Shown: positions 36,018-60,800 of the stretch, in pieces
Layout: each line of letters starts with the position of its first letter
Numbering within the stretch: position 1 is the stretch's first letter
NCBI RefSeq assembly: GCF_000208865.1
Contig: NC_018396.1
Location: 186,001 to 250,000 of the forward strand
DNA: 64,000 nucleotides
Direction: 5' to 3'
Origin: Neospora caninum Liverpool
Lineage: Eukaryota; Apicomplexa; Conoidasida; Eucoccidiorida; Sarcocystidae
Notes under the pieces: generated by a model
What the model was told of the DNA's origin: nothing
The model's input: the letters and a program-made list of their open reading frames with translations, nothing else
Databases searched by the model: none
Made by a program: the position numbers and the translations under genes

Positions 36018-38098
36018 CAAGAGGACAGTTTCTTCAATCAGGAGAGTGAGCATCGTTGGACCATACAAAGGAGTGACTCGGGTTGCATATGTGCGCATTC
36101 CCTTACCAGGACATGAGCCTCTGCGGCGCAACTCGCACACCCTTGTACGACACCACAGAGAGGCTTTCTGTCAATGCTCAGCCCCTTCGTACCCTGTGCG
36201 AGTGAAAAGGGATTTGTGTATTGATTTCTGTAGCCCCTGACTAGGCGAACACCTTGAATTACTACTACCTGCATCGCTGTCAGGGACACAAAGCCCAGTG
36301 CAGAGCGCCTCATTGCTACCGCCTACGGAACTCTGGCGCGAGGCATCCACTTCGCCTGTTAGAGTGTGGTCTTTGAACAAACTACCAGAAACAAACAGCA
36401 GTGCTGGGTAGAATACACCCCCGCACCCTGACAGCCAGGCAAAATAATTGGGGTCCTCACGATCGAATCTCCTCGAGGTGCGATTGTGCTCCTTTTTTGC
36501 CTCTAGACTGTGTTTCTCCCTTTCGTTGCCTGAATCCAGCCGAACAAGCGTCTGCTGAAATTTCGAAAAGACAGCGGAAGCCGCGGATGATTACCTTTTC
36601 CGTGGCAGGGGTTTCAAAGGCGCCGCTGGCTCATTCCTTTGGTTTCACTCTGAGAAATGCATACACTCCAAAGTGTGTAAGCAGATATGTGGAAAATGGA
36701 TTTGCAAGCACTCTATCTGTTTTCTGGACCTTAGCAAGCTGGTGGAGTTGGACTAAGCATTTCCACTGTTCAGGCACGAAAATACTAGGGGGCCCGTACC
36801 GCCTACATGAGGAAATTTGGAAACTGGGCATTACCTATGCAAGACCCAGAGTTGCATAGGAGAATCATTCGACACAGAAGCATAGAGGATGTTTTTTCTC
36901 ACCGAGTCTTTCAGGTTTCAGTTTCTTCCAGGACGGTGACCGCCGTGTCGAACCGTGTAGGGTCTCTCTTTGGCTCCCTGTGGCTAGACGTGGCTTAACA
37001 GGCATGTGTGTGGTGTCGTTCACGCTTAGATTGCTTTGTAAGCATCAGCAGAAAAAAGAGAGTCGTGAACCACCAATTTCGCACGCTAAGTCCAGATCAA
37101 AGAGCACAGAGCAGTACGAGATCTCACCGCTCTTCACACTCACGCCCTAAACGCCCCGCAAACAGAAAAACGCAAACGAAAGGAAGCCGCCTTCCGTAAC
37201 CCAGCGACGGATGAGAGGTGGCGCGCTGTCTCCCCGTCGGCGGTTGGTTTAGTCCGATCTTACAGGCGCTCCTACCTTCGTCACACTCGCTGCCGTTTCA
37301 GAAACCAGCGGAGCTTTCTATAATTGTGGACATGGTGTCTTCCGGGTGTCGCCACGGGTCATGTTTCCCCGCCATGGCCCAGAACATACCTGCAGCCGCG
37401 CCTCTCTGACCCATTTCTTCTAAGGCGGGTTGACACTGGAAGACGTAATGATGCATGACCGCTCACGGTCTACCTTAATATTTGCAAATAGATCTCCTAT
37501 GGCCGTGGTACACAAACGAATTGTGAGGAGTCAGAATCTCAGGTTCTGCTGATAATGGACTCAGGTTCACTGCAGCCTCTGGACCGCGAGAACTACCATG
37601 CACACATCGAATCTCCCTCCGTGTGGCGCTACCGGAAGCTCCCAGCCGCGGAGCACCAGAAAACTTCTGAGTTTCTGCAATTTGGGCGCCTATGGGATTG
37701 ACGCGCTCGTTTCACCTTTTCCCTGACGGAGAGGATCCACATAATTTGGTTGGGATCTTTTCACCACATCTTTTCTGCGGACCGTCCGCGCGGCGTGTGC
37801 TCATCGCCGCTGCTGCGAGGACCGGCGCTGATCCCTCCAGCCGGGACTTAGTAACTCGCTAGTGTGTTCATGCGCTGGAACTTTCGTTCCATTTTTTCCC
37901 GTGTGCTTCGCATTTCTTTCACTTCGCTCCCTCCCGACCCCTCCACGTCGTTCAGCAAACCCGATCGAGTTTTCACCGTGGCGAAGGCTGCTCTTAAGGA
38001 AGTCGAAGGGCGGCGGAGTGGTGGAACCGTCCCTTTTCCGCCCACGCGCTGATACCCCCAAAACTCTCCCGTTGTAAGGAGACAAAACCTTTTCAGGC
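36018..38098. other. Intergenic region upstream of the Rictor-like gene
   Basis: About 2 kb. Short frames occur on both strands (for example 36401-36859 plus), but none shows splice-bounded coding character. This should hold the 3' end of the 63-aa transcript and the promoter and 5' UTR of the large plus-strand gene. Confidence 0.45.
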
Positions 38099-41000
38099 AT
38101 GCAAGTCTTCGTCCTGCCTCGGTTCAACTCATATGGAGGAGCCGTATGCTCGCCGGCGCCCGTGTATGATACGCCCTCGGAGCCGCGCATGGAACGGCCT
38201 TCAGTGTCGAGCGCTGGTCCCGTCGTGTTCTGTTACGAGGCCTCTCCCTTCGACAGCTGTCTTCCGCCACATTTGCGCGAGGCCCAGATCTTCCAGGTGG
38301 GGCGTCGAGGAACCTGGACTTCCTTGGAGACTGACGAGTATCCCCGAGACGCAGCCTCCGTGTTTGTCGGCCAGCAGAGCAGCCGGCCGGTCGCTTTGCT
38401 CACTGTCCGATCAGACACACAGTCTCCGCCCACCCAGTGGAACGTTTTTCCTCCCTCGCTGAAACCGCCCACGTCTCTGAAGTCGATAGCATCCGAGGTT
38501 CTCTTCTTCGTCTGCTCTTCGGTCTCCGCTCTGACTGCAGCTGTCGTCACGGTGTCAACAACCGCCCTCTCTTCCCTCGGTGCCGGGGCAGTTTTGTTAG
38601 GGGCATGCGCAGTAGACTGTTGTTCGTCCGCCTGCGTGTCGCCTCAATGGCTGTCAGCAGAGGATACCTTTGAGAGGTATCGAACGATCCACTCTTCCGG
38701 CCCGAGTTCCCCGTATTTATCGCCTGTCTCGCCTCTCCCTCCAACTCTCCCCGACTTCTACTTACGAGAAGGACAACCGAGCGCCTTTCGGCGAGCTGTC
38801 GAGCTGGGGGCCCTCGACAGATACGGAGGATCCAGGGGCGGATCAAGGTGTCTCCCACCAGGTGTTGACAGAGGACAGTCTCCAATCAGGGAGGCGGTAC
38901 CGGTCATCTACATTGAGAACTACTGGGGCAGGTCGCTTCCGAGAGGGAACACGGAGGCATAGTCGCCAGGGAGCAGCCCTGTTTCCGTTGCCTCTGTTTT
39001 CTGCTCTTTGAGCCCAGAATCCCGCTTGGCTGGTCAGGAGTTTTTCGACTTCTTCAACATGCCTGCACGGCAGGTGAGACAGCATAAGAGAGTCACATGC
39101 AGAAAAGACGAGAACGGTAGGTCTCAACGCGTGAACAACCTCTTGGTGACGAGACACGAAACTTCATGGGCAAAGAATGAGCGACTTTCCAGGCGAGGCC
39201 GGCGCGCACGTTCCTTCCTCGGAGGGTTCGCCGGAGGCGCCAAGGCACGCAGGATGCCCGCCTTCCAGACAAATAGGCGCGCCTACGGCTGGCCTCTCCT
39301 TCAGCGGTGCGATCCCCTCTCCATTCCCGGCGACTTCCGCCGCATTTTCGTTCACTCGTAAAGAGAAGGTTTTCGAGGGAATACGCACGCCGAGGGAACA
39401 CAGCAAAGCTACAGACGGCGTACACGTCTACACACCTTTCAGTCGTGAACGGGCGACGCTGGACGTTGACGGAAGCTCGGCCTTCGCTTCCGAAGACGAT
39501 GATGTCACTCCGCTTCACCAGGCTGCGTCGCTGGGCGCTTTCGGGCGACGTGACATGCCTGGTTTGTCCGACCTCCCTCACGAGCATGAAATCGGCCATG
39601 GAACGTTTACAGTTCCGCACCGGCTGCGAAAGCGGGCGCTCTCCATCGCAGCCGCTGGCATGGTCACAGCGGAGGAGAGGAACCATAGCGCAGAGAGTTT
39701 AACAGAGCAGCCGCCTGGCCGCAACAATGGATGGGGCAGACGTCGCTTTCAGAGTGAATGCTATGCTGCGGACTGTTTTCCGCAGTTCCGCCCCCCAAGC
39801 TCTGCAGGTTTGCCTTCGTCAGACGGAGAGCCGCGACGTGGCGCCGCGGCCGATCCTCTTCCAGGTGCGCCGGCGGCTTTTTTTAAGCCGAACGTTTTTC
39901 GTCTGAGGAGCCCCATGCCAGTCGGCACCCGGCCAGAGGCAAAACCGGAGAGAACCACAAGGGCACCAGTGTTCAGCCGCTACGTATCTCAACGAACTTC
40001 CCCGTTTCCTTTTGTCGCGAACCGACGAGGAAAGCTGCGGTGTCGGAATGAGCCCCTCCCGCCACGCGCTATTCGGGAGCAGCTGCATGTCCTACGTCGC
40101 CTGTTTCGCCGGATCACACACGTGATCAGGCATACCACATTTGCGTGGCACGAGGAAGACGAAGACTCTCTATTAGGTGACAACACGTCGGAGGCCGGTG
40201 AACGGAAAGAGAGCCGTTGCAGCGACAGCAAGCTGGCATGTCGGAATGCATCGGGCAGGCGTACGGAACAGCCGACCTTCGAACAGTATTACAGCCTTTC
40301 TGAGGTGAGTGGCTCGGGCCGAACGTGCCGGAGTTGGAGCGCAGGCGAGCTCGACGGCCCCGTCAAGGTTGCAGAGGTGCCGACGACCCCGAACGCGGGA
40401 GCGTCGGGAGGCGGATCCGCACGCATGGTGGTGACCGAGACGGAAGAGACGTTTGAAGACGACGGGGTCCTGACGGAGGACGTCCCCGATCAAGACCGTG
40501 TCACCTCCCCTAGCGTCTGGTCCCGCTGGCCGCGAAACGAAGTGCCCAGCGACGAGAAGGACCCGACGCAGCGCTCTCGCGAGGTGCTGTTTTCGGCCCA
40601 GAGATCCGGCAGCTTTGGAGTTGACCGGTGGGAGGAGAGCAGGAGAAGGGACGGGGAATTTGACCTGTGCTGCCTTCTTCGGAGGCTCGTCACTGTGCTC
40701 CAGCAGAGAGGGACGGGCGCGGCCAAAGACGATCTGCGCGGAAAGGAACGACGAACCCGCAGTTGGCTAGTCGGAGCAGACTCCAGGGCCTTGCCAGCCC
40801 CGAATATGTACGCCTATCCGGATTCGGGTGAAGAAGAGTGGCAGACGCCGACGGCGCGAGGTCGCCCGGAAGCCAGAAGTTCGTCGTGCCCGGTCTCTGC
40901 TCTGGACCTTCTTCCTTTGTCGTTTATCAGGACTCTGCGTCTCCTTCTTGTTCATCCAGAGCCGCACTGCCGCGTCCTCGCCATCGAAGCTTGCACGACT

Positions 41001-44000
41001 TTACTGACCTCTGCAGTGCAGCACAGGCGGTTTGCCTCGCTTCTGGTTCCGAATATAATCGCGAAGGCTCTGCTTCGAGAGCCCGAGGCTCTGTCGTATT
41101 CGTGCTTCGAGCAGCCACAGAGAGGTGGTGTTTGCCCCTTTCACACAGGGCGACTCGCGCCGGACCGGCGATGGCCCCCCGAACTGCATGCATCCCTCCC
41201 CTGCTCGGGATTCGCCTCGTCTGCTGGGCCCGACTGCGGGGACGAGACTGAGGCAGCCGCAGCGTCAGCGACCGGCTCCGGCGCGGTGTACTTCGAGCGC
41301 GAAGCAGCCCTCACGTTCGTCAGGGTTTGGACCGCTTTAGGCCGTGGTGCATCCCGCTCTTCGGATGGGAGGAGAGTCGCCGCGTCTTCGCTGCAGCCGT
41401 GCGGAGCACCCTACTGTCGGTGTGTTGATCTCGATCTGTTCACACGCCCTCTTCTCCCGGATGTTTTTGTCTACACGGTCACCTCAATGGCTGCTGCCAC
41501 CGAGGACGCCGACGCGAATGTGGCGGTCGGCGCGCAACCTGGAGCCCATTTCCGCGCCTCCAGCACGGGGAGAAGTTCAGGCAGGCACATGGCGCATCCA
41601 CATGCTGCGCCAAACAGAGCAATTGCACCGCGCCTTGGGGAGCCGGCGGGAAGGGCGTTTGAGGGAAAGCCCCACCACGGCGCTGGGGCCGGAGACGGCC
41701 AGCGCGCTGAGGACACCAGAGGCAGCCACGAAGGGCGGAGTCGGTGGGAGTCGACCTGTGCATCCGCAGCCATGCAGTGGAGGGTGGCGTGCTTGGAAAC
41801 AGTCTTGGGCTTTGGCCTTCTCTGCCCGTGTATCCTGGTGGAGACGCGAACTACCGGGGTTCTCGTGGACGCACTCACTGACGTAGAGGCTCAGGCGTAC
41901 AACCCCGGATTAGGCCCCGCGATATGCGTCTTCCTCATTGCCCTTCTCTCCCATCGGTACCCGCAAAAGCTCGCAGAGGACTCTCCGCCGTCGCCAGCCG
42001 TCGCCGGCACGCCCCGCTTGGCTTGCCAGACGATTTCGCCGTTCGGCGCAGGGCGTGGGGCGCCGTCGACATTGAGAGAACAGTTCTCCGCGTGCACGTA
42101 CGGAGCAGCCGGGGGCACGTCCCCCGGACAGGCTTGGCAAAGACGTGATGTGGACTCCGCACGGAAAACAGTCGTGGAAGATCGGTGCGTGTGCGGTCGG
42201 CCGCTTTCCTCGTCGTCCCGGCTTCAGCTCGAGCAAACGTACATAACGGAGCTGTCGCGCCTGTGCGGCGTCGCCATCGAGATTGTGCAGGCCTGCTCGT
42301 CTCCCGGATCTGTCGCGGCTGCTGCCGGGGGCCGAACAGGCGCCGGACGTGGGGCTGTCCCTGGCGAGCCTGCGCGGCGACACCAAACGGCGCCGGGTCC
42401 GGTGTTTCAACCGCGCAGGTCATCTGGGGCAGCCGAGGGGCCTACTAGAGGGTCGGGCGCGGGGGCGAGGGCGACTAGCAAGGCGCCGGAAGGTTTCGCC
42501 GCAGCGCGCGCCTGCACGAGACCCAACGTTGCGCCCGCAGCGAACTTTTTACCAAGCGGCTTTAGGTCCGCTCTCCGGCTGTACCGACGCTGGATCTTGG
42601 TCTCCTCCGCTCTGTTGTGTCTATCCCAGTCCTTCTCGACGCTGATGGCGCTCTGGCGCCTGCCGACGGGGCTGCCGTCTCTGGTGAGGCTTCTCGCCAG
42701 CCCCATCGATCCTTGCGCCATGTGTTGGATTTTGCGCCTTTTCCACGCCATGCTATCGTATGCAGTCGGCTGTCAGGGTCGCCGTATGACGCTGGCCGAG
42801 TGCGACAGCCTAAGCAACTGCCAAATCGATAGATCTGCGGCTGCATGCGTTTGTCCAAAACGCACAGGCGACAGGAGCAGAGAAAGTGGGTCAGCGCGCC
42901 GCGATCCAACGAGGTCTTCCCTGGCACGAGAGCCTGCCGGGATAGACGCTCTCATACGCCGACGTTTCACGTCGGGCAGAGAGGACGAACGGCCGTTCTC
43001 CTGTCCCTGGGCATCTGACAGCGGACCCAGGTCGCCTTTCTCTGGCCCGTCGAGCCCCCGACGGCGAGCTGACTTGTCGGGCCTGTACTTCAGTCCGTTC
43101 GGGCTGCGCGGCCGAACCACCTACACGCCGCCGCTCTCTGGCGCGGACCCTTTCGTTTCGGGGTCGGCTGCGTCTGCTGACTACGGCAGCCACGACTGGC
43201 CCGAAGATTCCGACCCGACGAAGAACGCATATGGAGACGTGGCTTTCCCGTTTGCGAGTGCCGCGGAGGCTCCGGACAGAGCTGCGCACAGGAGCAGGCC
43301 CCCAGGATGTGCGCCCTTCCGTTGTGCCTCCTCTGCGAACCAGCCCGTGACGAGAGATATTGTTGAGACGCGCTCGCTTCTTGTGGCGCGTCTCATGCTG
43401 CATGCACAACTGCATGTAGTCCTTGCAGGCCTTTGCTCGCTTCGCGATGACCACCATCGCCGTACGGCTGATACACCGTGCTTGATTCCTGTCATTCCCT
43501 CCGATGTGCAGTTCGTGCCGGAGACTCTAAAGATCGACGTTCACGGGGTGACTGAATTGTCTTCGTCCTTCGCGAAATGCCTCCTCTGTGCCGAGCGGGG
43601 CCCGGCCCCAAGGGGATTCTCGGGATGGTCTAGCAACAAGACAGGCATCCTCTCTGCGGCCCCACCACGAGCCTGCCAGCAGCGGACCCCGAAGGACGTT
43701 GCAGTCGACACGCGGCTCCCCGGATCCACATTGCAAAATTTCATCCCTTTTGCCGCCATAGTGCGGACTGAAGCAGCGCACCTACTGTATGCGCTGGTCC
43801 ACACAGTCGCAGCCTTCTTTCCGTTGCACCTGCTTCGCCACAAGTTGGACGCCGAAACAGTCTTCCGCCAGCTACGGCCTCCACCGCCTGCGGGACCGGC
43901 TCAGTGCGCCTGGGTGGACCGCGAGCCGTCCGCTCGAGCTCGCGCGCTGAGCAGCCAAGCTGCACAGCCTTTGCATGCGCAGTCGCAAGAATTCTACCGG

Positions 44001-47000
44001 GGGGCTCCTGTCGACGCCGTTCCTTCCTCACTTCACTCCAGGTGGCGGCAAACGGGCGAGCGCGGACCGCAAGGAGGCGCCCGCGACAGACTGCCGCACA
44101 ACAGGCGCGGGGGACAGGGTTGGAACGAGCTGCGCCGGGCCACGAATTTCGGAGACGACTTGCGACTGCGACGACCTTTCAGCGAGAACTACCAGGCGAA
44201 CACGTGGTCGGAAATTGCGTCGCGATCTGTCCACAACGTTGCCTTTTCTGACCACATGTCCCTAGCCACGCTGTCCGACTCCACTGCGCGGGGTGAACAG
44301 TCTTCGGCCTCTGTGTGGCAGGGACCGAGAACGTATCATCGGGTCTTGGCCTCTTGCTTCAAGAGGGGTTCTGACTCGACCAGCCTGAGCGTGATTTCGA
44401 CGCTGTCGCTCCTGCACTTTGTAGCAGCCCCGCCTGTGCGCTGTGGACTCCGCTCGCTCATCGCCGGTGGCAAACTGGTATGCAAAAGCGAAGGCACCGG
44501 CATCTACGGCTCACTGCGCCTTCTTCTGCGATACGGGAACCGCGCCGACGCACAGGCTCCACAGTGTCACACGGCGGACAGCGTACTAGCGGAGCACGCC
44601 TGCGAACAAACGCCTCTGGAGGACTTGGCGCCCTCGGCGTTTGACGAAGACGCGCCCGTCGGAGAGATGGACGCGGGACGGACCGCCTTCAGCGGTCCCC
44701 AGCATCCAGACGGTGCCCTGCAAGATCCGCGTGCGGGCGTCAGAGACCCAGCGAGCCTTCCGGCGTTGAACGAGAACGGCGTGTTGGCGGCTAACAGCGC
44801 CGAGGTCGGCTGCGCCCTCCAGCCCTTCACCGGGCCTTCTTTCGTTGAAGATCCGTACCCACACCTGGAATCCGAGAGAGGCAAGCTTTCTGAGTGTGCG
44901 AATCACAGCGTAACGACGCGAATGACAGGCTGCCAGCAAAAACGGTCATGTCCGTCCCCGTCATCGGAAGCAAGCGCTTTTTACGATCGGCGTGGGCCAT
45001 CGATTCGCGGCTTCTCGACGTCTTCTTGCCAGATTCAAGAGGAGGTTCTTCGGCGGCTGATGGTGTTGCATGAAGAAGAAGAAGGACAGTTGCAACACGG
45101 GGGAAGCTGCCCGACGCTCCAGATGCTCAGCGACGTCGTCCCGTTTATCTTCGGAGACAGCGCTCGCATCGGGGTGAGTTCTTTGCATGAGGGAACAGAA
45201 AAAGCACTTCAGTCGGTTGGCGCGGCAAAGCCATTCAGTTCAGTGACCGCGCTGCCTATCGTGGTGGCGTCTTCACACATAAGCTGCAAAGCCTCACGCG
45301 TCCTTTCCTCGCTGGTGGCCGGCACCCCAGAACAGGACTGAAACGTTATTGGGAAAGACTCTGCAGGCTTCAGCGCGAACCTGAGCCACGCGCAGCTTTT
45401 TGCCGGGACGTACCATGGGAACCCGGCAGTGTGTGGAGTCGGCGAGAGCGCTTTGTGTTGGGTCGGGGATCTAGGTGCCGAGCCGACCCGCCCTTGCTCA
45501 GCCTTGCTCGTTTCCTTCCTGTTTTTCTTGTTTCGACAGCTTGCTCACAGAATCGAAGTATGCTGGCACGCGGCGCCATGCATGCCAATGGTGCTTCCGC
45601 GCCGATCGCTTTCGGGAGGACCTGCAAGTCTTTCGCCCCCGTTCGCGATCTCCGACGCCCGTCCTAGCGGCAAGGTGGTGCCTGAGTGCGTCGATGTCTC
45701 AGGGCGAACTACAGGGTCACGCGTCCCCGGTTCCGCTCTTTTCTCTGTGGCACCACTGCCGAAGCTGTCTCTCGGGTCTGGCGTGAATCAGGCGAACTTG
45801 CAGGAGGAAACAGTCAGGAATATCGACACAGGGCGTGGCAGCAAGCGTCAGGATTCAGCGGGGGCGGCCTCCCTCGCGCAGCCAGCGGGCTGGCCAACTG
45901 CTTCACGCGGTCCCCTCCCGGACGCCCACTTCTCCACCCCGAGCGCTTCCTCGATGTCGGCCTTAATCGAGCTGATGAACGCTACGGGGGTTTTGAAGTA
46001 CTCCGTTGAGAGTGCTGGCCTCTGGTAAGTGTCTAGAAACGATGGTTCCACAGTGCGCGTCGCAGGCACAGTGAGTGAAGCACGCGCGACTCGATCACGT
46101 GGCAGCAGCCATCGTTTTATATCCTGATCTCCCGCAGCAGCACATATTGACCGGAACCCGCTCATTGGGATTCTCGTCAGCTCGTGGCGAAAGGAGCGAA
46201 CTGTTTCGAAGCCTGTGGCCGTGGAAGAGTGCTTTTCCACGGCGCATCGTGTGCTTTAGGAAAGGTGTTATAGAGCAGTGCTCGTTGCCGCAGAAAAGGG
46301 GCTCTCCGCCTTCGAACAGCAATGCTCGTCGCATATTGTGTATCGTTGAGGTCGGGGCGGTGCTCAGGGAACAGATTCGACGGATCGTTTGCTTCACATG
46401 TTTCAAGGCAGAATGCGCATCCGTACTGTCCGTGAACGTTCTTCCTTTCTTGCAGTGTACCGGATCGATTTACGGCTTCTTGCCAGGCTGTTTTTTTTTG
46501 CGTTTCCACTCAGGGATTGGCAACTGATCTCGCGTCTCCTGTTTGGCCCTCTGGTGTCGCATCTGCGCTTCCTGGTAGCCTTCTCGGCAGACCTGACCCG
46601 GGTTTTCGAAGTGTTTCTTCAACAGGTTCTTGCCTTTTTCTTGCCGTCGTCATGCGGCTTCGCCTGCTTGCCGTGGGACATGGACAACCTTCACTTTCTG
46701 CTGATTGCAAACGCCCTTGTGTCCCTCCTCCTCATCGTTCCGCACAACGCTCTCACCCTCTCGCTCCCGCTGTCTTCTTCTCTGTCGACCGTGCAAATGC
46801 TTCGGCTTTGCGAGAAGCCGCCCCAGGGGCCGCGGGCTCCTTCCTGGTGTCAGGGAAACAGGCGGCTACGGTCAGTCATGCCGCGGATCGCATGCACGCC
46901 AGTCGACAAGGGCCAGACCGAGCGGAGGCAAGTCTCCGAGCAGGAAGCGGCGCATCGAGCTCAGCCTTTGGTAGGTCGCCGCGCCTCCTACTCCCCGGGT

Positions 47001-50000
47001 TCGTTTCACCGAGCGGAGTCGGCAACTGGGAGGCCGGTCGGGCTCCGCACAGCGTCGCAGTCGGATGCGGGGCCTTCGGGAGGTCTGTCGGGCAGCCAGA
47101 GCAAAACGCCAGTTGGTGCGGCGAAGCGAGGGGCTCCCGATGAAGAGACGGGCGCTGGGCTTTGTGGTCGGCGGGCGCTGCTGATGGAGATTGCAGGACT
47201 TTTGCTGCAGGAACTGCTCCTGCCTCCCCACGTCAGTCCCGCGTCTGCGTGCCGCTGCTCTTCCTTGTGCACGTCGCTCTCCACTCCGCACATGTCTCGG
47301 TTTTCTCAAGGCCCTCTGGCCGGGGCTGCCTTCCCCCAGACCGTGGAGGAAGGAAGGGAGATCCGGACTCCTGCTGACACCGCCTTGCGTTCTGGTGCAC
47401 CTCGAGGGAATCAAACTGGACAAGGCAGCGAAGACGGGAACCTGAGTTCCAGCACGGACGGCCCAGAGCCTCAGGAGCAACACGCAGGTGGCGGGGGAAG
47501 CCCGGAGATTCTTGAGCGGTCGCGTGGTGTCGATGCACGCGGGCAGAGTGTGGAGGCCAAACAAGGACGGCGGCCAGACTTGGAACGAGGTTGGGAGAAC
47601 CGCACGAAGCGCTTGGACGGGAAGCCGGCAAGGGAGACGAGTCCACTGACGCTGGCCTCGCGCATCCCTCTCGTCGAGAAGACTCTGTCGTTCGCCGTTG
47701 CCGCCGACACGTCCATCGTGAGGCTGCGAGGCAAACGCCTCGTGTATCATGTCCACATGCGAACAGCTGAGCAACTTCCTACCCGACTGGCGAAGCCGAG
47801 GGGAGGCAATCAGGCATCGGGTACGGGGCTGCAGTCGTCAGGCCACCACACGGCGGCGGGAGCGCGACAACCAGATAAAAGCGGAAAAGGCCAGGCTCGA
47901 CCTTGTGCCTCTAGCTCGTCTCACGTCTGCAGTGCCGACCGTCCCGGTGTCGGGAGGGAGCCGCCGCCATCGCCTTCCGTTCGGAACGAACAGCTGCGAC
48001 TCGCGGCAGTCCTGCCCCGTGTCCTGGCAGACCACCACACTCGGCGGACCTTGTCAGGGCAGTATGGGGCGATTGTGGGTACGTTTTCGGCCTCGCTGGA
48101 GGGCGTGATTCAGCTCTCGAGAGCAGGGATTTTCGCGCTCCTCATCCAGCTGATTGATCAGGGGCCGGCAAAAGACGCGCTCGTGGGCCACTTTTTCCCC
48201 CATCTCTGCTTAGATTTTGTCCCGGCGCGACGCGTGCTCAGCAGGATTCTTAGTCGCGGCTCTCTCTTTCTGAGGCTCCGCTGTCTAGCTTACTGGCAGC
48301 GGCAGATTCTCGACGACGGTGCGCGAGCGGATGACGCAGTGTGCGTTGCCGGAGACCAGGCTGGTCTCGACGTAGGCCTCGTCAGACGCCACGGAGAGCC
48401 GACAGAGACGTTTCGGAGTCAATCGCCAAAGGCACAAGAAGGCAATGGCCGACGGCGGAGCGGCACCAGAGACTCTTGCCGCCCAGGGAGACGGGAGGCA
48501 GTTGGAGCGTCGCTGGGTGACCAGCGAAGGAGCGAAAGTGAGATCTCGCAGCCGCAACATCCAGGCAGCGATTCGGACGATGCGTGTGCGCCGTCCTCTT
48601 CAGGCAGCAACGCTAGCCTCTTTGCGAAAACTCCCCGGTGGGCGTGGCAACTCCAGGAGGTGATTCTCAAGTGTTTAGGCACGAACCAGCCAGCCCTTCT
48701 CCGCAGCGAGGCGATACGAATCGTAACGATTGTGTGTCGTCGGAAGACTCGCCGCGCTGTGCGAGTCATTTTAAACCTTATGGAAACGGGAAAAGTGTCC
48801 ATTGAAAGCTGGCCGCGAGTGCTTCAGCTACAACTGCTCAGGGCTGACGATGGCGTCCAGACGGGAACGAGAGACGGCTGGGTGCACCGTCTCCTAAATG
48901 AGTACATAGCAGCAGCTCATGGCGATGGCGTCGAACGCCCGCATTGCTGGGAAGCCGCTAGCTCAGTAGGACGGAAGCACGCCGGGAGAGACGAGACCTC
49001 GGAGGAGCCGGAGTCTCAGCAGCGGCCGACGCGCAATAGCGAATCGGAGAACCGGCTACCCGTGCAGGAGCCGGTGTGCGAGGAAGTACGAGCGAGAGGT
49101 TCGGGGGCAGAGATACACCATTTCGGCCCCCTGACCGGAATGCGGGGTTCAAACTGCGGGAGCGTTCCGCGTGTGACGTTGCGAAGCCAAACACCTCTGA
49201 AACGATTCGTCTACGTTCGGCTCATGGAGCACCTCATGACAAAGGTACGTCGTTTGTCTGAAAGGGGGGAAGAGGAGCCGTTGCCGGATAAGTGACTCTT
49301 GGGGTACGGTTAAATACACTGACTTGAGTTGGTGCAGCCTACGGCGCGTGTGGGGGAAAGGCGCTAGTGTGACGCGGAAATATCGGCGCGGAAGGGCCAG
49401 CTGTGCGAGACGAACGGCTCGGTACCTGCGCGGTCCGTGCTTTGAAAGCATGCGGCAGCATTCGTGCTCGAGGGCCATCGGAAAACCGAGGGTGAACGCG
49501 TCCCGTCGAACACATCGACCCGACGTGATTGGCCCGCGGCCGCCCGGGAAGCGAACCCCGGTGTGCACTGTCGATTCGGCGGCCGGGGTCGTTGCTGTGC
49601 ACGTTTGATTTTTTTTCGTCTCCCAGGCACCCGTCCTGTGCGTTTGTGTGATGCGGCGTTGTGCTCCAGGTTTCCAATTTGCCGGAAATTTGGGAAACGC
49701 GCATGCTGGGGTCAAAGGCCGTTGATCTGGACCTCTCTGTCCCCGCTGCCTCTTCGCCTGGGCTCCACCGTCCGCCCCCTCTGGGTCAAAGTGGCGGCGT
49801 CCCGGCGGCTTCTGCCTTTGCGGGTTACCCTGACGCTTGGGCCTGGAGTCGCACACATCCGAGAGGGAAGCCTGCGCCGCCGCACTTCCCACCGCTTCAG
49901 GCAGAGTTAGACCCTGGACACGTTGAGAAGCTGGTTTACGTTCCAGGGTCGGCGCTTTCGCCAGGTGTTCAGCCGACTGGAAACGACGCCCATTCCCGCG

Positions 50001-53000
50001 TGCCGTGGATTTTCCATTTGCTCCAGCGGGAAGAGGCGGCGGGAAGCGCCATCGCGCCTGTTCGCGGGCTGCCTGTCAGTGAGGAATCACGAAGGTGCGC
50101 AGACGGGAAGGGGAGACGTGGCTCTGCGTCAACTGCCCAGTCAGTCGTTGAGGCCGCGTTCGCGCAGCTGGACGCCAACGTTGTCGTGCCCGGAGTTGCC
50201 GGAGCGATCCGGTTTCGACGAGGCACGATGAGAAAAGGCGGCGGCGGTCCGGGATGCACGTGGATGTCCCACGTGCCTTGTCAGTTGCAGGTGCAATTGG
50301 TGGCAATCTTGGAGTCGAGGAGGCAGGCCGCGCAGCTGCGTCGCACAGGAGGGGGAAGCAATGCAAAGGGAGAGGCGACTGTGGGAGAGAGAAACGGGGA
50401 GGAAGGCGAAGACAGTGGGGGCCTAGGGAAAAACAGCGGTGAAGGCCGACGTACAGGAGCCAGCGTCCGTTGCGCAGAGGGTTTGTTGGGCGATCAGGCT
50501 GAGAGATTGAGAAACGGTTGGAGGGGAGGCGCCACGCCGGTGAGAGGCGATGCCGTGGACGAAGAGGACGAAGATGAGAGGGTGGCGGCGATCATTCGTG
50601 AGAAAGGAGTTCGTATTGCGTTAGAGGAAGGGTTTGTCAGTGAGGAGGCAGTCACCGCGAGAATGTGGATTGTTGAGCAGTTCCCCCTCGACGGAATGGT
50701 TTTCGCAGACTCCGTCTCAGCCGCTCAGCGGGCCGCCATGCGCCATGTTTGTACGTCCTCTTCTGTCTGTTCTGTTTCTCCTGTCCCCTTGTCGCGCCGT
50801 GGTTCTTTTGCCTCTTCGTCGGCGTCTTGGCGTGAAGTCCCGGGGACATTTTCCAGTGTTAGGGATGACCACTCCAACGCCTCTACTGGACTGTCGTTCC
50901 CCGAAGCTTCCTCAGACGGGCCGTCGGACAGGCAGTCCCGGGCGGGAATGAGCGAGGCGTCCAGCACCGCAGCAGAGCAGGTGAACCCCTCCGCGAGGCA
51001 GGAGCAACGGCAAGGGCGGGCGTCGGCTCTGGATGGTCTTGTCGACTTATCTCACATAGAGGAGTCGTACTCTCTGGTCAGTTTGGGCAACCAAGAGCAC
51101 CGAATCCCCGTGCGCAAATTCCTGGTCCCGCGTCGCCTTCTCAGTGACCGGTCCACCCGGGCTGACACCGCACAGGCTCACGTCGAGGGGAGGGCGTCAC
51201 GCAGTCGGCCTCCGAGCCGCACGAAAGAAGACGCTGACTCTGGGAATGGAGAGCCGTTGTCTCCTTTCCTCGACGTGGCGTTGCGCGTTCGCGTTGTTGC
51301 TGGTGGCGCGTACGCCGACAGGACAGGTCGCTTTCAGCGAAACGCGGAGAGGGCAGCTTGGGAATACCTGTCGCGAACGGAGCAGACGGCGAGTATCTGG
51401 GAACAAATGAAAAACCGCGGAACGGCTGCGGCCTCTGACGGCGGACCTCCACCTTCGGCGCGAACCGCGTCACCACAGCCGGGCAGCGTCCAGTGCGGGC
51501 TGCTAGAGGTTAACCAGGAAAACGATGCCGCTTCCTTAACGAGTGCGCCGGAAGGCGAACACCGCCATCGGGGTGAACTGCGCAGAGCGAAGGACGAAGA
51601 GCGCCGGCGAAGAACCTTGTGGAATTCCATTGGACCCCGCTGCTTGACTTTCAACATGGAGTCCTTCCTTCCTCCAGAGGGAGACGATGGGGCGCGTCGG
51701 TGGCGAGACAGCCACCAAGAGAGAGCGGCTTGCCCACCGCAGGAAGCGTCCACGCTGGGACCCGTGGTGTTGTGTACTGGGAATTTCCGTTGGGTTTTCT
51801 GCATGCATCGGCAGCCGGAACAAGACAGACGGGATTTCACCGATTTCGGCGTGTTTCGCCGACGCTGGGAACACGAGCTATACATGTTACATCTCGTGAG
51901 GCTCCACGGCCCCATCGTCGTGCCACGCGCCAGGCGCGTTGCCGCGGCACCGCCTCCCTCCATCATTTCGTACCTCGCTCTAAGCCATTCAGGTACGTGG
52001 ATGCAGCGCCACGCTCTCAGTCCCTTTTCGCCTCCGAGCAGAGAACGAGGCGGAATCGCGAGAGTGCTCATGTGTTCCGTCGTCCCATTCACCTCCTCTC
52101 GGTGTTCACCGGAAGCAGTCTACGTCGACGGTATATCTCATGTCGGTCTAGCTCCGGCGCTGCTCTCGTTCTTGTTCGCCTTTGATCTGTAGCCACTCCA
52201 AACAAGATGTGGCTGCGGTGCCTGTCTCTCCTTCAGGCTGCCGGGTCCTGCTCAATCACCCGACGTTCCTGCCCTACTTGGAGTCGGTCCTTCGGCGGCC
52301 GAGCCGCGTCAAGCCTGCAGAGGTGTGCGCCGCGATCTGGTCCGTCTGTCAGATGGCCTCGACGTCCCTGGGAAACGAGTACCTCCTCGAGTACGACAGG
52401 CAAAAGGAGCGACGCCGCAAAAACGCCAAGGCGTCCGCCTCGCGCCCACAAGGGGGTGACCGCGAAACGCCCATGAACGCCAGTGTCCGTTCCGGGCATG
52501 TGCCGGGACAGGCGCAAGGAGGCCCGGAGGGAGGAGGGAACTCTGGTGACGCCTGTCGACGTGAGACCCGAGACTTAAGGTTGCATGGTGCAGGTACCGA
52601 ACCTAAAGCGGGCGCTGGCCAGGGGAGCTCCCCTGCACATCCGTATGTCGTTCCGGAGGCAGAAGAGGGACGCTGTGAACGTGACCGGAGAGAAAATCAG
52701 TCTGACCCACCGAGCTGTACCGACGGCGAGCTGGAGTTGCCGAGGTCCGTCAACGGGGAGGTGAAAAGTGGAGAGGGGCGCGGGAAACACGAACCTAATC
52801 TGGCTCGACTGGAAGCCCCCGACAGTCGCGACGAGATGAGCAAACAGGAGACTGTTGCTCGCCTGGGACACTGCGAAAGGGATTCATCTCCCGAGGTGGT
52901 GAACAAACATGAAGAGGAAAGCACTGTGAGCAGCAGCGCACTGCTACGGCTGGTGATGCGAATCGCATGCCGCGGCACTCCGCCCTGCATCCGAAGCACG

Positions 53001-55218
53001 TGCCTCCACGCGCTGTCTCTGGTCCCGGTGTGCGAGCCTGCGGAGAACGCTGCGGCCGCGACTCACTGGGATCTCGCAGCCAGGGGACCTGTGCAGGAGC
53101 GTCTGTTTGAATTTCTGGCTGGAGTCGCAACAGGTTCGGAAGAAGACACGACCGACACGGAAGGCGAGTGCAGCGCTTCGGGCAGAACGGGCGGACAGGC
53201 CGAAAAAGAAAAGCAAGGCCGTTCAAACACCGAGCACAGACCCCTCGCACGCCTTGGGAATGGGAGCGGAGCGTGCACGTCTGGGAAGAAGGAGGCAGAG
53301 GCGGCGGAAGTGCAAGACCACTGGATCGTCCTGGGGAAGTAAGTCAAACTCCAGCTCTACCCCGCAAAAACCGTAGGCGCGTTGTTGTTCGAACCTAAGG
53401 TGAAACGGAACAAGCTGGTACTCACCACGACGTCTGGACCGCAACTTTTCCGTGCACGTGCTGGCTGTCAGTGAAAACCCCCAAGTACGTTTCTGACCTT
53501 CGCGACGGTTCTCGAGAGCCTGGGGCCGCGTTGGCGACTCCTCGTGACTTCCCTGTACGCAGACGGGTTTTGGCATTGCCCGGAACACGACGCGGGGACT
53601 CTTGGAAAACCCGCAGTTCGGTCGTTTATCCTTCATCCCTCGCTCCGCACGTTGTGGGTTTGGGTTTGCCTTCGCCTATCCTGCGCAGGTTGGTTTGGGC
53701 TCCGCCGTTCAACCCCCCGGTCCCACAAGATGGCCGCAGATATTCTTCGCTTTTCTCCCTGGAGAAGGCGAGAGGCTGCCTCCCAAGCAGCTCTCAGGCG
53801 GGGGGCGGAGGGACTCCGAGGACGTCGATCAGCGCGACACGGACGCCGCGCAGACGAAGCAAGCAGGAAATCCTCCAAAGGCTCGAAGAGAGTCAGAAAG
53901 GAGACACGTGCCTACGCGATCTAACTGTCGAGGGAGGCAGTCGTTCCTCGTCCGTCCGCGAGGACAGCCTACAAGATAGTTTTTCTTCAGCCCTCAACTC
54001 GCAAGACTTGCCGTACACTGGAGGTCCCCCGAGGAAAGCTCTGGCGCGAATCGAGGAAACCGCGTGGACCCTCTCGGACGAGTCCCTTCGGCCGTCGTAC
54101 GCGTGCTTTGGCAGCCAACATTGGTCTATCTTGGAGATGGTGAGAATGAGGCGCTCGGTGCGTCTCTTACGGAAACAAAAAGCGACAAGATACATTCGGC
54201 AAAGAGACTGCAAGCTGCCGGGAATCGTTGCTAGAGCATGAGTACAGATTGGTGTATGACAATCGGGGGGCACCCGTGTCTCGTCAGGACACTTCTACTG
54301 TGCTGCCGCTTTTGACAGAAAGCGCGAGGGGGTGTGCATGGCGGTTGCAACACCCTAGCGTTGCCACTGTCTTGTGCTGTGCGTTTAGATTTCCAAGTTG
54401 CCGAACTCAGTTGCTGTTCGCATCAGCGGTTTGATATCGCACCTTCAGTCTATCAAGTAAGTCTCGGCAATGATGGCGCGGATCTCTGAAAAGGCCAGGA
54501 AAACCGCCGCGTACGTGTACCAGGAAAAGGGTGGTATGTGCCTTTCTGTGGAAGGAGATATGCCGCGGACGATAGTTCTCGTGCCGTACGCGGGTCTGAC
54601 GAAAACCGCAGTGTACCTGCCGTACCTCCAGCATAATGAGTCACCGATCTGCGCAAGCTGGGCTTGTTGGAGTCAAAGCGCGCTCGCGAGTGGTTGGAGG
54701 CACGTGCTTTTCAGTACCGTACTCAGTAGTGCCTGTTTTGTCTCTTCACATCGTCGTATTTCAAGTTGCGGTGCACAGCGGGCCCCCAATGGCTCCTTGG
54801 GTTGTCGCTGCGTTGTGTTCTCTGCCCACAGACAGAGGAACCCCTCGCTTTTTCTATCGGTTGAGCTTTGGTGGCGAGTGGAGCAACTGATGTGCCTTTA
54901 CTGCTTCTCTGCTCACCTAAGGTAAGCGATTTTTTCGTGGGAATTCAGAACGGGCTTCTTTGTGAAGTGCGTGTTGCCGCACCTTTCTTTATTCAGGCAG
55001 ACTCGACGGCCCTACTCGCGCACATCTGTTATTCCGTTTTGTTTGTTAGGCGATTCGTTGCGTCACTTTTCGGCGAGACGTTGAACGATCCCACCGCTCT
55101 GTCGTATCTCGACGCCTTGGCAGAACATGTGTCGCAGCTGCAAGGAGATGGCTGCCACGACGTGGACGGCATGGCTAGGAACCGAACCGGGAGTATTTTG
55201 CTTTGTGGTGACTTGTAA
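38099..55218 (+). CDS. Giant Rictor/Pianissimo-like protein (TORC2 subunit), about 4,701 aa, 10 exons
   Basis: Exons 38099-38861, 39041-39073, 39193-45173, 45540-46024, 46514-49244, 49670-51992, 52237-53338, 53689-54139, 54389-54456 and 55050-55218 total 14,106 nt and keep phase throughout. Rictor is the scaffold that defines TOR complex 2. Conserved helical-repeat blocks appear in Rictor order: TLRLLLVHPEPHCRVLAIEA with EREAALTFVRVW; RVACLETVLGFGLLCP; LRLYRRWILVSSALLC; RTEAAHLLYALVHTV; DWQLISRLLFGP at 46024/46514; IVGTFSASLEGV with ARRVLSRILSRG; LLRSEAIRIVTIVC; LALSHSGCRVLLNH at 51992/52237; AAIWSVCQMASTSLGNEYLL with CIRSTCLHALSLVPV...HWDLA (RICTOR_V-like); and a C-terminal SVAVRISGLI plus RFVASLFGETLND. 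Long Ser/Gly/Arg-rich insertions make it nearly three times the human length. Exons 1-2 are uncertain: exon 1 has a hydrophobic segment (TAAVVTVSTTALSSLGAGAV) and might be a separate gene. Confidence 0.82.
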
Positions 55219-57881
55219 TTTTCCGGGTTTTCCACCAGTCAGTGATAAAGACCCCCACGCAGAGGTCTTTTCCAAGGATCTAAATCTCGACGGTGAATAA
55301 TCAACAAAGAATCACTCTGTTTCCGTTATCGGAAAAATAAAACTTCTGTATCGATGTGCCCCGAAGCGAAACGGGCACCAGAAGTTTTGCTGAATGTCCG
55401 TGTCGGTCGGTTCTGTGCACACTTTCCCCGTTCTGTGTGTCTCCATGATATTGCGCCAATCGCTGGGTTGTCTCACTGTCGCCAGACCCGCTGGGTTGTC
55501 TCACTGTCGCCAGACCCGCTGGGTCCATGCGACTGGTAGCCGCAGAAGCTCGGCACACGCAGCATGCAGTGAGCACGTCTCCGTCACGCGTGTCGTAATC
55601 CACTGCGTAGGAGAAGCAAAGCAACATTCCCCGATATGTCGCGAGTCTGAGGATGATTCGTTCCGTATCGTGTGGGACGGACCCAGCAGCAGTGAGGAGA
55701 GGGATACGTGAAAAAGCCGTCTCAGAATTGGCGAGTCCCATGGGCGGAACAGAGCTTTTTTTGCACGTAGGCCGTCGGTACAGGGAGAAGCACGGGGAAT
55801 GCAGGCGACTGTTTCATGCAGGTCGTCAGCGCTTAAACATTTTTTTACTGAAGTCTTCACCCACCATCGGACGACACTTTACGCTGAACGCTGCCTGCAG
55901 CAGCTCTTGTGTGCGGAAGCCGTGGAGGTCCCGAGAACGGTGCACGGGTCCGCGTGTGTCAGATGGAAGAAAGCCTTTGCTTCCGACAGGCGCAGAACCG
56001 GAGACACGGGTATTTCTCGACCCCCCATAATTAGGTAGTTTGTGCAAACCTAGGAAGCCGCAATTTTCCTCATACACAGAGTGCAGACTCGCGCATTTCA
56101 CAGCGAACGACTCGGCTGCCCAAACATGAACGCCATGATTGCACCAGGGGTTCCCCCTCGTCGCCAGATATTTCCCTGTTCCAACTAAACACACTTCTCG
56201 CCCACCCCTTTACGTATCTCCGGCCGTTTTGATAGCATGCAATATCTGTTGCTGATGGCAGCTCGTCCCGACATTTGCGGCATGGGACGAGCAGGTTTAG
56301 CCACCAGGGTGCGATGCTAGGGACGTCTTTTCCACAGGGTTCGGGTGCACTTGTATTGTTGGAGAAGACAATTTCGTACGCCTCTCAGTAGCAGAACACT
56401 GTGGTCAGCGCCGCGACAGCGCTCACATCGGATGTGGCGGCGGTCCCTTAAAAAAGAGAGCAAATGGTTGGGGCATGAAAGATCTGAACCGTGTTCCCGG
56501 ACTGTGTGATGGAGTTGCGGCACATTTGATACGGTACGGTGGACGCGGTCGCCGAAATTGACTAAAAGACAACGTTGACACTACACCGCCGATTTTCAGA
56601 AATAAAAAGTGACACGAGAAGTGGCAACGCGGTTGAGCAGCACCATCTACTGGAAATCCGTCCAGCTACCGGAAGTTCCTCTCAAGCGCATGGCGTTGCC
56701 ACAAGGCCGCAATAGCCCTACGCCCACATCTAGATACCTCAATCGTTTGCCCTCGTAACTCGATTCAGCTAAAGTTGTGCTTTTTGAGTTTATACTTATT
56801 CTCAAGAAAAAATGCCGAAAAACCGTGGATTGCGGCAGGTGTTCCATGACCACAGGGTGTCACTCTGACGATTCTTCAGTCACCGTTCTTCGAAATGGCT
56901 CCATTGGGGGAGCCCTCACTTACGCAGCACGTAGACGTAACCCTCTGAATGACTCCTCGAGAGTCAGCCGGTTTCAGAGAGCCTCCCGCCTCGTGTGAGA
57001 CGAGCAGTTTTTCGCTTCTTCGTTGGAAGAGCGACGTGGCTGTCCTCTACGACTTCTTCGCGATCTTGTCAGGCACATTTTCGGGCTCACGCCGGCGCCT
57101 CGCACATTTTTTGGCGTTTCATTTTCCTACCCCTACAAGACCCAGGCGGTTTTACCAGTGTGGCATCAATACTAGAAAAGCCAGGACACCTGCGCACGTG
57201 GCTAGAGAGGCGGTGCCTCGGAGCAGCGGCTCGCTGTGCTTCGTCAGTTCACAGAATGAACATTCGCCTTCGTGGTCCGATTTGCACTCCATTCAGGCAC
57301 AGACTAGCGAAGTGTCAAGAGGTTCAACGAGATGGCCGGTGCACCGCGGCACACCGGTTGTACCCATGCTTGCCTCCCGACTCAAAAGTGTTGCACGACC
57401 CGCCGCATGCTAGCGGGTGACACGACAGTCGGCAGTACTGGCGTTTCTGGAAAGTCGTACCAGCTTGAAGGACAGCAAGTATTTTTTTGTATAGTTGATT
57501 GTTTGACAAATTCATGCACATGTGTCCTAGCTGGCAGTAGTCGACGTAGCGTGTTTTGCTTCTTGCCGTTGTCAAGTGTCTGTACGGTTCAGGCAAGGTC
57601 TCTCTGGTCACTGAGTGCACCATTCCCCCGTTCGTGTTCGATGGTGGAAATTGCTATCCATTTTTCGTGCTTACGCGTTCAAATGAATTAGAACTGTATA
57701 GATGAAGACGGCCGTTCAACGGCTACCAAGTCGTCATTCCACCGAGGGGCCTTGCATTGTACCCAGCTGACCCCCGAGGCCGTAACGGAAAATGAAAAAA
57801 TCCTATCGCAGAAGGTCGAGGTGGAGATAGCCTCATTTCCCAGAACGGATCCCCGAATTACCTTTTCAGTTCTCGAAGGCA
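55219..57881. other. Intergenic region between Rictor-like and F-box genes
   Basis: About 2.7 kb. It contains a 28-bp tandem duplication (55463-55518), annotated separately. An ATG-started 79-codon plus-strand frame at 55799-56038 (ALKHFFTEVFTHHRTTLYAE; GSACVRWKKAFASD) has some coding character but no partner exon or motif. A CTTTTCAG acceptor 16 bases before the F-box ATG hints at a non-coding or extra 5' exon within this stretch. Confidence 0.4.
55463..55524. repeat. Tandem duplication of a 28-bp unit
   Basis: The unit beginning CTGGGTTGTCTCACTGTCGC occurs at 55463-55490 and again, identically, at 55491-55518, followed by a 6-base partial copy. It lies in non-coding DNA downstream of the Rictor-like gene. 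Identity of the copies suggests a recent duplication, useful as a strain marker. Confidence 0.9.
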
Positions 57882-60800
57882 ATGGCGCAAGGCGTCAATG
57901 AGCGAATTCCCTGTGAAACCAGCCCGCCTGCTCCGGCAACTCGCTGTGAGCACTGCCACACTGCGGCTCAACTGCAGACACTGGAACCTTTGTGTTTTGA
58001 CCACCTTCTTTCTTTCCTGGACCTTCGTGACTTCTGCGCGCTTTCTTCGGTGTCTCGGTCGCTCCGGGCCACTCTCCTGACCGATCTGTCAAGGGCAGGG
58101 CGGTGCGTTTCGTGCCTCGCAGTCCATTGTCTCTGCGATACGCCGGTTCACCCACCTCTCGGCGTCTTGCGCCATGCGCGGTCCCTCGATTCGGTACTGC
58201 CTCTTTCCGTCGGAAGCACCACCTTGAAAAGCGACACGGTATTGCTTCCCGAGAATACGAGAGGGGAGACCTACCTCGTCGATCCGACGCTCCCATCCTA
58301 TCGTCTGCCGGAACGTTTTTTGCCACACGATGAGGGATCCTCTTTCACAATTGAAAGCGGCGCTTCCTTCTGCCGTGCCGCCCCTACACAAGGCAACTGT
58401 GGGTCGGACAAAAACGCGGAAGTTCTCTCGGTTCCGGAGTGTCGACCATTAGGGCCTCGGACTCTGACTGCTCCGAGCTCCGCACCGCCGCAGGGTATCA
58501 CCATTTGCTCTAAGCCAGTCGGTGGAAGTGTCGAGGAAGGAAGCGGCGAGGGCCGTTTCTCAGGTGGGTGCGTAGGAGGTCCAGGTGAGTCTTCTCCAGC
58601 TCCGCTGGTGGCGCCCTGTGAGGTGCCGGAAGCGACGGTGGATCCTTCCAGAAGCCGCATTCTCAGTGATACGCAGGCCGCTCCTCTGCACGGCTGGTGG
58701 AGTTTTTCTGACGAAGCATCCGGGTGCTCCCAACTGTGCGCAGTTCCCCTCTGGAAGGCGTTCCTTCTCGTTGCCAAGGGCCTTTCTGTCCTGCGTGTGG
58801 GTCCCCCGGCTTTTGGAGCTGTGCCTCTGGCTCTGTGGGGACACCTGCTGAGAGAAAACGCGGCGACTCTGCGAGAAATTTCAGTCTCCAGCACGCTGCG
58901 GTGGGAGTCTCGACGGCAGCAGCAGCGCCGGCAGCGGGCGTTGCTGGATCTTCTGTGCCGTCTCGAAAGCCCATCCAGCGACATCCAGGCGGCTCTCGCT
59001 TCGGCGTCCCGGTTTCTCCCCCCAATTCCCTCGCGCCCGGATTCCCCACCTTCTTCGCTTTTCCCAAAGGGCCGTCCCCCTCGATCGGAACACAGCGAGT
59101 GCACCGGGGGCGAGCAAGAGACTGGGCGGTGCGTGTCGCACTCGGCGGCTATCCAGGCTTGTCGCAGTCTCTCTAGGCCTTGTGAGGACATCCTCCTCCC
59201 GGCGCTGAAGAGCCTGGCGATCGCGTGGGGGCCTTGTAGTGGACTTCTCCAGCTCTTCAGGCGGTACACATGCCGACAATGTGAAGAGCTGCAGCTGGTG
59301 GTGGCGGACATGCCGACGGCGACTTGCTGGAGTGACGCTGTGGAGAGTGTCCTGGACCGGGTCGGAAATGGGGGGAAACTCCGTCGCTTTCGCTTCGCCG
59401 TCGCTCCCAAAGGCTTCGTCCAGGAGCGCAGTCTGATCTGTTGGCTCTTGCCGTCTGCCGAGGACGCCGATGGACGCATTGACTCGCGCCGGCACCCGCC
59501 AGAGGTCCCCAACGCCTCGTGGCTAGCCGCGCTCGAGGAGCTGTCCATCGACACAGACGACCCGTGGCTTCTGCCCAAGGCTGCTCAGCTGATTGCAGCC
59601 GTCACGCGGCCCTCCGGACAGCCTGCCGGCCTTGCAGGCCCCCGTCCGCCGGGGGGAACCGGACCAGCGCCTCGAGGAGAGGGAGCAGCGCCGTCTGGGG
59701 ATCCGAGGGAGACGCTGTGGGGAAGCATGGGGACTCCGGATGGGGTAACGGCCAGGCGAGGTCTGAGGAATGTCTCGGAAATCTCCGAGTCGGGTGCCGG
59801 CGCGGAAAGATTGGGAGGCGGCGTCTGTTCTGCCGCGGTGACCGGTAACGCTGCAACCTCCAAGGGCAGGCGCGTGCGCCATAGATCGTGCGGCCTTCTG
59901 GAACGGCGACAGGTGCGAGGAAAGAGTGACGGCCAGGAAGCAGAGAGGAGCCCCCATGCCGACGCGCACCAGGCGGCTCAGCGACGCCTCTCTGGGGTCG
60001 AAACTAGATCAGAAAGTCCAGGAGCCGCAGCGTGTGCATTTCGTCAGACGCCGTGCGGAAGAGTGGAGCATCTGGACAGTGGCAGAGACGAGACAGGCCC
60101 GCAGACCGTCTCTCGAGCCAGTGGTGAGGAAGGGCGTTCCGCCGTGTCTCTGCAAAATAGTCGGCCTGTGTCCAGGACACTTCGAGACGTCGACGATGAA
60201 GTTCGCTCGGAAATGTCCAGCTCTTGCGTTCTCCGATTCCCCTCTCTGCGGGTTTGCAGCTTCCGCTGCGGATCCGTGCCTGCGGCCGGGGCCGGCTGCT
60301 TCTCGTGGGACTCGGTCGAGTCGCTCTTGGCATCTGCCCCGGCTGGCTGCGCCCTCCGGTTTCACGGGGATATACTTTTCACCACGTGCTCGTATGGACC
60401 GTGTCGTTTTCTTGCTTCTTCGGTCTCGCCGTCTCGCTCTCCCGTGGGCCCAACAGTCAATCCTGCAGAGCACGAGAGGCGATCCAGTTGTTCGCGAGGA
60501 AGAGTAAACTCGTCGCGAACCGTGGCAGGTCGAGACAGTGCACGGCCCTCTTCCCCTCCACATTGGGAACCGTTTCTCGACGCTTCCCTGCCGGCGCAGA
60601 GATCCGCGTCAACTCGACAGGGTTTGCTGTGTGCACCGCCACGCCGCGAAGAGCACCCGAGACAGCGACAGTTATTCCCTGGCTGCCGCGTGGCCGATCG
60701 TCGGCCGCAGATCTGCGTGAAAAGTGCAACGGTCGTGCTGCAGGAGATTCGCGGTGAAGCTTCGTTGGATTCCCTTCTGTCGCCAGCGTTTCACGCGCCG

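Follow-up and report, generated by a model that had tools for sequence, protein, structure and literature searches.

The window analyzed here comprises 64,000 nucleotides of the genome of the livestock parasite Neospora caninum Liverpool (contig C12, positions 186001-250000; all coordinates of the gene below are window positions). At 39177-55218 on its forward strand lies a gene whose product is a real, divergent and enlarged Rictor, a further member of a known family. Rictor is the subunit that defines TOR complex 2 (TORC2), a growth-control complex. Our reading, which we hold with good confidence, is that of a divergent coccidian Rictor, for which we predict a scaffolding role in a complex of the TORC2 type together with the parasite TOR kinase and, likely, Lst8.

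The identification is founded on the Pfam profiles RICTOR_N, RICTOR_M and RICTOR_V, with cut-offs of 28.5, 27 and 27 bits, respectively. Among single open reading frames (ORFs), RICTOR_M alone exceeds its cut-off (30.8 bits), with RICTOR_N and RICTOR_V below threshold and in the correct order. When the complete genome (57.5 Mb, 14 contigs) was searched, a single RICTOR_M match at E<=1 was obtained, which lies at this gene (35.5 bits). RICTOR_M also surpasses its cut-off in four of four coccidian proteins (28.0-29.3 bits), the relatives from Besnoitia, Toxoplasma and Hammondia being described below. The full-length Besnoitia protein reaches 29.3 bits for RICTOR_M and only 13.6 for RICTOR_N.

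We also used a core of 27 blocks (1700 of the 4471 residues) that leaves out the low-complexity inserts, picked by eye for conservation among the coccidian proteins at a time when the Rictor resemblance was already known. In this core both RICTOR_N (37.5 bits, E 1.8e-9) and RICTOR_M (30.1 bits, E 4.2e-7) exceed their cut-offs, RICTOR_V remains below (18.3 bits, E 0.0027), and the three matches lie in Rictor order. Cores of three coccidian proteins match RICTOR_M and RICTOR_V in three of three cases, the latter with a best E of 3.3e-5, and RICTOR_N in two of three, the T. gondii protein having no N-terminal half. At E<=1 the three cores revealed no Pfam family beyond these, and no other armadillo/HEAT family in particular, which supports the Rictor identity proposed by the first-pass annotation; the reversed core matched no family at all. 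The same annotation had described conserved blocks in Rictor order, separated by long, poorly conserved stretches, and this pattern is borne out for four regions (N, M, V and C-terminal), which follow one another on a single protein as far as the gene models go:

40920..42197, forward strand: RICTOR_N-like region, residues about 582-1007 including inserts; core positions 68-262, 37.5 bits
48018..48290, forward strand: RICTOR_M domain, residues 2663-2753; 28.0 bits for the full-length sequence against a cut-off of 27
52326..53027, forward strand: RICTOR_V-like region, containing a low-complexity insert (approximately residues 3876-4109); sub-threshold at 18.3 bits (cut-off 27)
54083..55143, forward strand: C-terminal block, residues 4345-4447, across exons 6-9; alignment to yeast TSC11 and human Rictor

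Identity to the Besnoitia protein amounts to 71% (1204/1700) within the core and to 25% (705/2771) outside, where 628 positions are gapped in Besnoitia, and the fraction of disorder-promoting residues is 0.67 outside versus 0.47 inside. We regard the long inserts as probable disordered loops, which would lengthen the protein and leave its core unchanged.

Sequence comparison with proteins of known structure recovers Rictor itself. A profile of the V and C-terminal blocks (301 positions) gave eight rows at E<=10 against PDB sequences, seven of which are Rictor or its yeast counterpart TSC11 (Avo3), six with E between 4.1e-5 and 1e-4 and the seventh with 0.058. Both the human and the yeast protein are found with the blocks in order: profile positions 69-180 and 210-276 align to human Rictor 879-992 and 1615-1679, and positions 111-167 and 210-276 to TSC11 1149-1205 and 1342-1407, respectively. 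The N. caninum protein resembles Rictor/Avo3 in its domain matches and their order, the RICTOR_V match being sub-threshold, and in V and C-terminal blocks that can be aligned. It differs in its length, with 2771 residues outside the conserved blocks, in a V region split by a long insert, and in a RICTOR_N match that stays below threshold in the uncut protein.

Several results weigh against this reading. The uncut protein passes RICTOR_M only, by a margin of 1 bit (28.0 bits), and reaches 12.6 bits for RICTOR_N; RICTOR_V is below its cut-off in every form of the N. caninum protein examined. A profile of the 1700-residue core gave no significant Rictor match against PDB sequences, yeast TSC11 (E 1.7) being the sole Rictor among five rows at E<=10, and a PDB sequence search with the uncut ORF of the RICTOR_M exon gave no match. 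The top row of the V and C-terminal profile is a leucine-rich-repeat protein (4ow2, 7.6e-7), a sum of five pieces, none above 8.4 bits, that we read as a repeat artefact, and the C block taken singly aligns weakly (12.6 bits for yeast TSC11, 7.4 bits for human Rictor). AlphaFold models are poor, with a mean predicted local distance difference test score of 51.4 for the M region and 33.5 for the N region, and too weak to use; a Foldseek search with the low-confidence M-region model had no match that reached E<=0.001, and its best 50 matches did not include Rictor.

Low scores, the sub-threshold RICTOR_V and the missing fold match of that low-confidence model would agree with a protein of another armadillo/HEAT family that resembles Rictor by chance. 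We consider this very improbable, as matches to three Rictor domains occur in order with no other family, the reversed core is empty, and human and yeast Rictor are recovered by sequence.

The gene itself consists of nine exons with an intact frame of 4471 residues. All eight introns (128-489 bases) have GT..AG borders. An exon chain derived independently of the database protein, by means of splice sites and reading frames, agrees with the database model except for one acceptor, 53563, which was replaced by 53689 on the basis of that model and of the alignment with Besnoitia. After splicing, 4471/4471 residues are identical to the N. caninum Liverpool database protein P0001:

39177..45173, forward strand: exon 1, residues 1-1999, N-terminal half with the RICTOR_N-like region; frame identical to P0001
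45540..46024, forward strand: exon 2, preceding intron GTGAGT...ACAG; frame identical to P0001
46514..49244, forward strand: exon 3, with the RICTOR_M domain, 5' junction GLW/DWQLIS (the stroke marks the junction); frame identical to P0001
49670..51992, forward strand: exon 4; frame identical to P0001
52237..53338, forward strand: exon 5, with the RICTOR_V-like region and internal insert, 5' junction SHSG/CRVLL; frame identical to P0001
53689..54139, forward strand: exon 6, acceptor as in the database model and backed by alignment with Besnoitia; P0001 frame
54389..54456, forward strand: exon 7, starting ISKLPNSV, which is present in 4/4 coccidian proteins; P0001 frame
54832..54921, forward strand: exon 8; P0001 frame
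55050..55218, forward strand: exon 9 with stop codon; P0001 frame

The first-pass annotation had let the gene start at 38099 and given it ten exons. Both statements had to be corrected, since the database model begins at 39177 and has nine exons. A first exon at 38099 was dropped on account of this start and of the upstream ORF at 38078-38959 having no Pfam match; nothing was observed that links this ORF to the Rictor-like gene. The two splice junctions on which that annotation relied are real: GLW/DWQLIS joins 46024 to 46514 and SHSG/CRVLL joins 51992 to 52237, each with GT..AG sites and compatible phases. Its description of the protein as nearly threefold enlarged is fair, given 4471 residues versus 1708 in human Rictor (chain 6zwm_E) and 1430 in yeast TSC11.

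Database relatives were found in Besnoitia besnoiti (BESB_058540, 4259 residues) and, as the pair P0003/P0004, in T. gondii (TGRUB_228390, 2320 residues, 23 member sequences) and Hammondia hammondi (HHA_228390, 2319 residues). Judged by their sequences, these proteins are likely orthologues. The automatic UniRef name of the N. caninum and Besnoitia proteins starts with "Rapamycin-insensitive compan", and most of the C-terminal block is invariant across all four coccidian proteins. On the opposite side of the balance, TGRUB_228390 and HHA_228390 have no N-terminal half, their first residue corresponding to N. caninum Met2217, and the N-terminal half used as a query gave no match among proteins of fitting length. 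The missing half was either lost from these genes or is missing from their gene models.

Both observations would suit a locus with two products, of which one is a C-terminal Rictor like that of the T. gondii and Hammondia models and the other a distinct N-terminal protein. However, the N. caninum and Besnoitia models read through and both contain the LWDW junction, RICTOR_N precedes RICTOR_M as it does in Rictor, and the T. gondii protein begins at an internal methionine and may reflect a cut gene model. We therefore regard two proteins as quite improbable and proceed with a single enlarged Rictor.

Candidates for its partners are encoded in the same genome. A TOR kinase gene is located on contig C13 (4918684-4923536), where less than 5 kb accommodates FRB, pieces of the kinase domain and FATC. 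The FRB domain is split over two exons (44.0 and 38.7 bits), the PI3K-type kinase domain is represented by three pieces (95.1 bits, and 26.2 and 14.5 bits, both below cut-off), and FATC (52.4 bits) ends in GWCPFW. One of the kinase pieces and the second FRB exon have TOR2/mTOR chains as their best matches.

An LST8 candidate on contig C6 (1126918-1130914), to which the human LST8 query led, shows several stretches collinear with yeast and human LST8. Individual stretches of the candidate have generic WD40 proteins as their best 60 PDB matches each. When the pieces are joined, LST8 chains are matched in a single stretch with E of about 4e-27 to 1.4e-26. These chains rank behind three WD40 proteins, whose scores add up many repeats, and two further WD40 proteins are interspersed among them. 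It counts against the candidate that it is no full gene model and that its pieces were selected by LST8 alignment, which flatters the joined score; as a sequence-based assignment, the gene is likely LST8, with this score as support and not as proof. Three other places in the genome matched by the yeast LST8 query look like other WD40 genes and were set aside.

Raptor was not detected in the genome with the Raptor_N profile and an N-terminal piece of human Raptor, a search that had no positive control and is no proof of absence. Unfavorable to our reading is SIN1, which was not found: the CRIM profile gave no match in the genome, again without positive control, and the SIN1 search yielded one weak match (19.3 bits) that contains a stop.

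A RagA/Gtr1-type GTPase is encoded on contig C12 (2057042-2059339; three stretches of 100, 66 and 33.9 bits), and another Rag-type candidate on contig C6 (494702-496644) consists of three sub-threshold stretches. Rag GTPases are described as regulators of TORC1 that were lost together with it in intracellular parasites such as P. falciparum, in the part of the publication available to us (PMC5745459). Their presence here fits oddly with a loss of TORC1 and speaks against a simple loss of all parts on the TORC1 side.

These partner data bear on whether the protein might be a Rictor descendant that now serves as a scaffold outside any TOR complex. The undetected SIN1 and the very long inserts would agree with such a role, and Rag-type GTPases in a genome in which Raptor was not found suggest that TOR wiring may be unusual. 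Since genes for TOR and a candidate LST8 are present in the genome, and the four coccidian proteins differ little in their C-terminal block, we consider this unlikely and prefer a Rictor that belongs to a TOR complex. The first-pass annotation had concluded that a TORC2-type pathway is retained. TOR and the LST8 candidate in the same genome fit a retained TORC2-type core; a working TORC2, with the Rictor-like protein expressed, assembled and functional, goes one step further, and it is this step that we infer.

Studies of yeast suggest how such a complex could be built. According to the sections consulted, Avo3/Rictor binds those HEAT repeats of TOR that Raptor also uses and presumably covers the FRB with its C-terminal part; deletion of the last 157 Avo3 residues renders yeast TORC2 sensitive to rapamycin (PMC5700991). 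By analogy, the N. caninum protein would dock on the HEAT repeats of TOR and shield the FRB surface with its conserved C-terminal block, leaving a complex that is poorly sensitive to rapamycin. The alignment of this block to TSC11 1342-1407 of 1430, within the last-157-residue stretch, suggests the same FRB-covering role. Such a cap would fit the modest effect of rapamycin on autophagy in T. gondii, for which a high dose was needed according to the portion of that report available (PMC3228817).

Ciliates offer a further parallel. RICTOR is reported there in all species, RAPTOR as absent and SIN1 only in Paramecium, as far as the accessible part of a 2025 survey goes (PMC12467227). N. caninum resembles this pattern in having TOR and Rictor, with Raptor undetected and SIN1 represented by a weak match with a stop. 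It differs in its Rag GTPases, and the likeness is drawn from published ciliate descriptions and from Raptor and SIN1 negatives that had no positive control. As a tentative and rather doubtful extension, tissue-cyst coccidians might use TOR only as TORC2, with Rictor kept and Raptor lost as reported for ciliates, and the C-terminal FRB cap might explain the poor action of rapamycin on them.

The same survey, in the part at hand, describes apicomplexans as uniformly without TORC1 and TORC2; it ignored matches below 100 bits and used PTHR13298 as its Rictor hidden Markov model (PMC12467227). This threshold may explain why coccidian Rictor was missed. Elsewhere, in publications likewise seen in part, P. 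falciparum is named as a species without TOR (PMC5745459) and a T. gondii TOR is mentioned (PMC9002357); in the open-access literature we found no publication plainly about coccidian Rictor. Neospora has a Rictor together with TOR and a likely Lst8, and related Rictor proteins occur in Besnoitia, Toxoplasma and Hammondia. These findings contradict the published uniform loss as far as TORC2 is concerned and provide these parasites with a plausible working TOR complex. The case also indicates a problem of method, in that large inserts drive true homologues under score thresholds. The question of TORC2 is now open to standard genetics in T. gondii and N. caninum.

Two further features of the window lie outside the Rictor-like gene. 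Downstream of the Rictor-like gene and on the same strand, an open frame of approximately 1757 residues (57831-63104, forward strand) has no Pfam match at E<=0.001. At 22179-24622, also on the forward strand, two ORFs match the tubulin-tyrosine ligase family (41.4 and 105.9 bits) and are probably exons of one gene.

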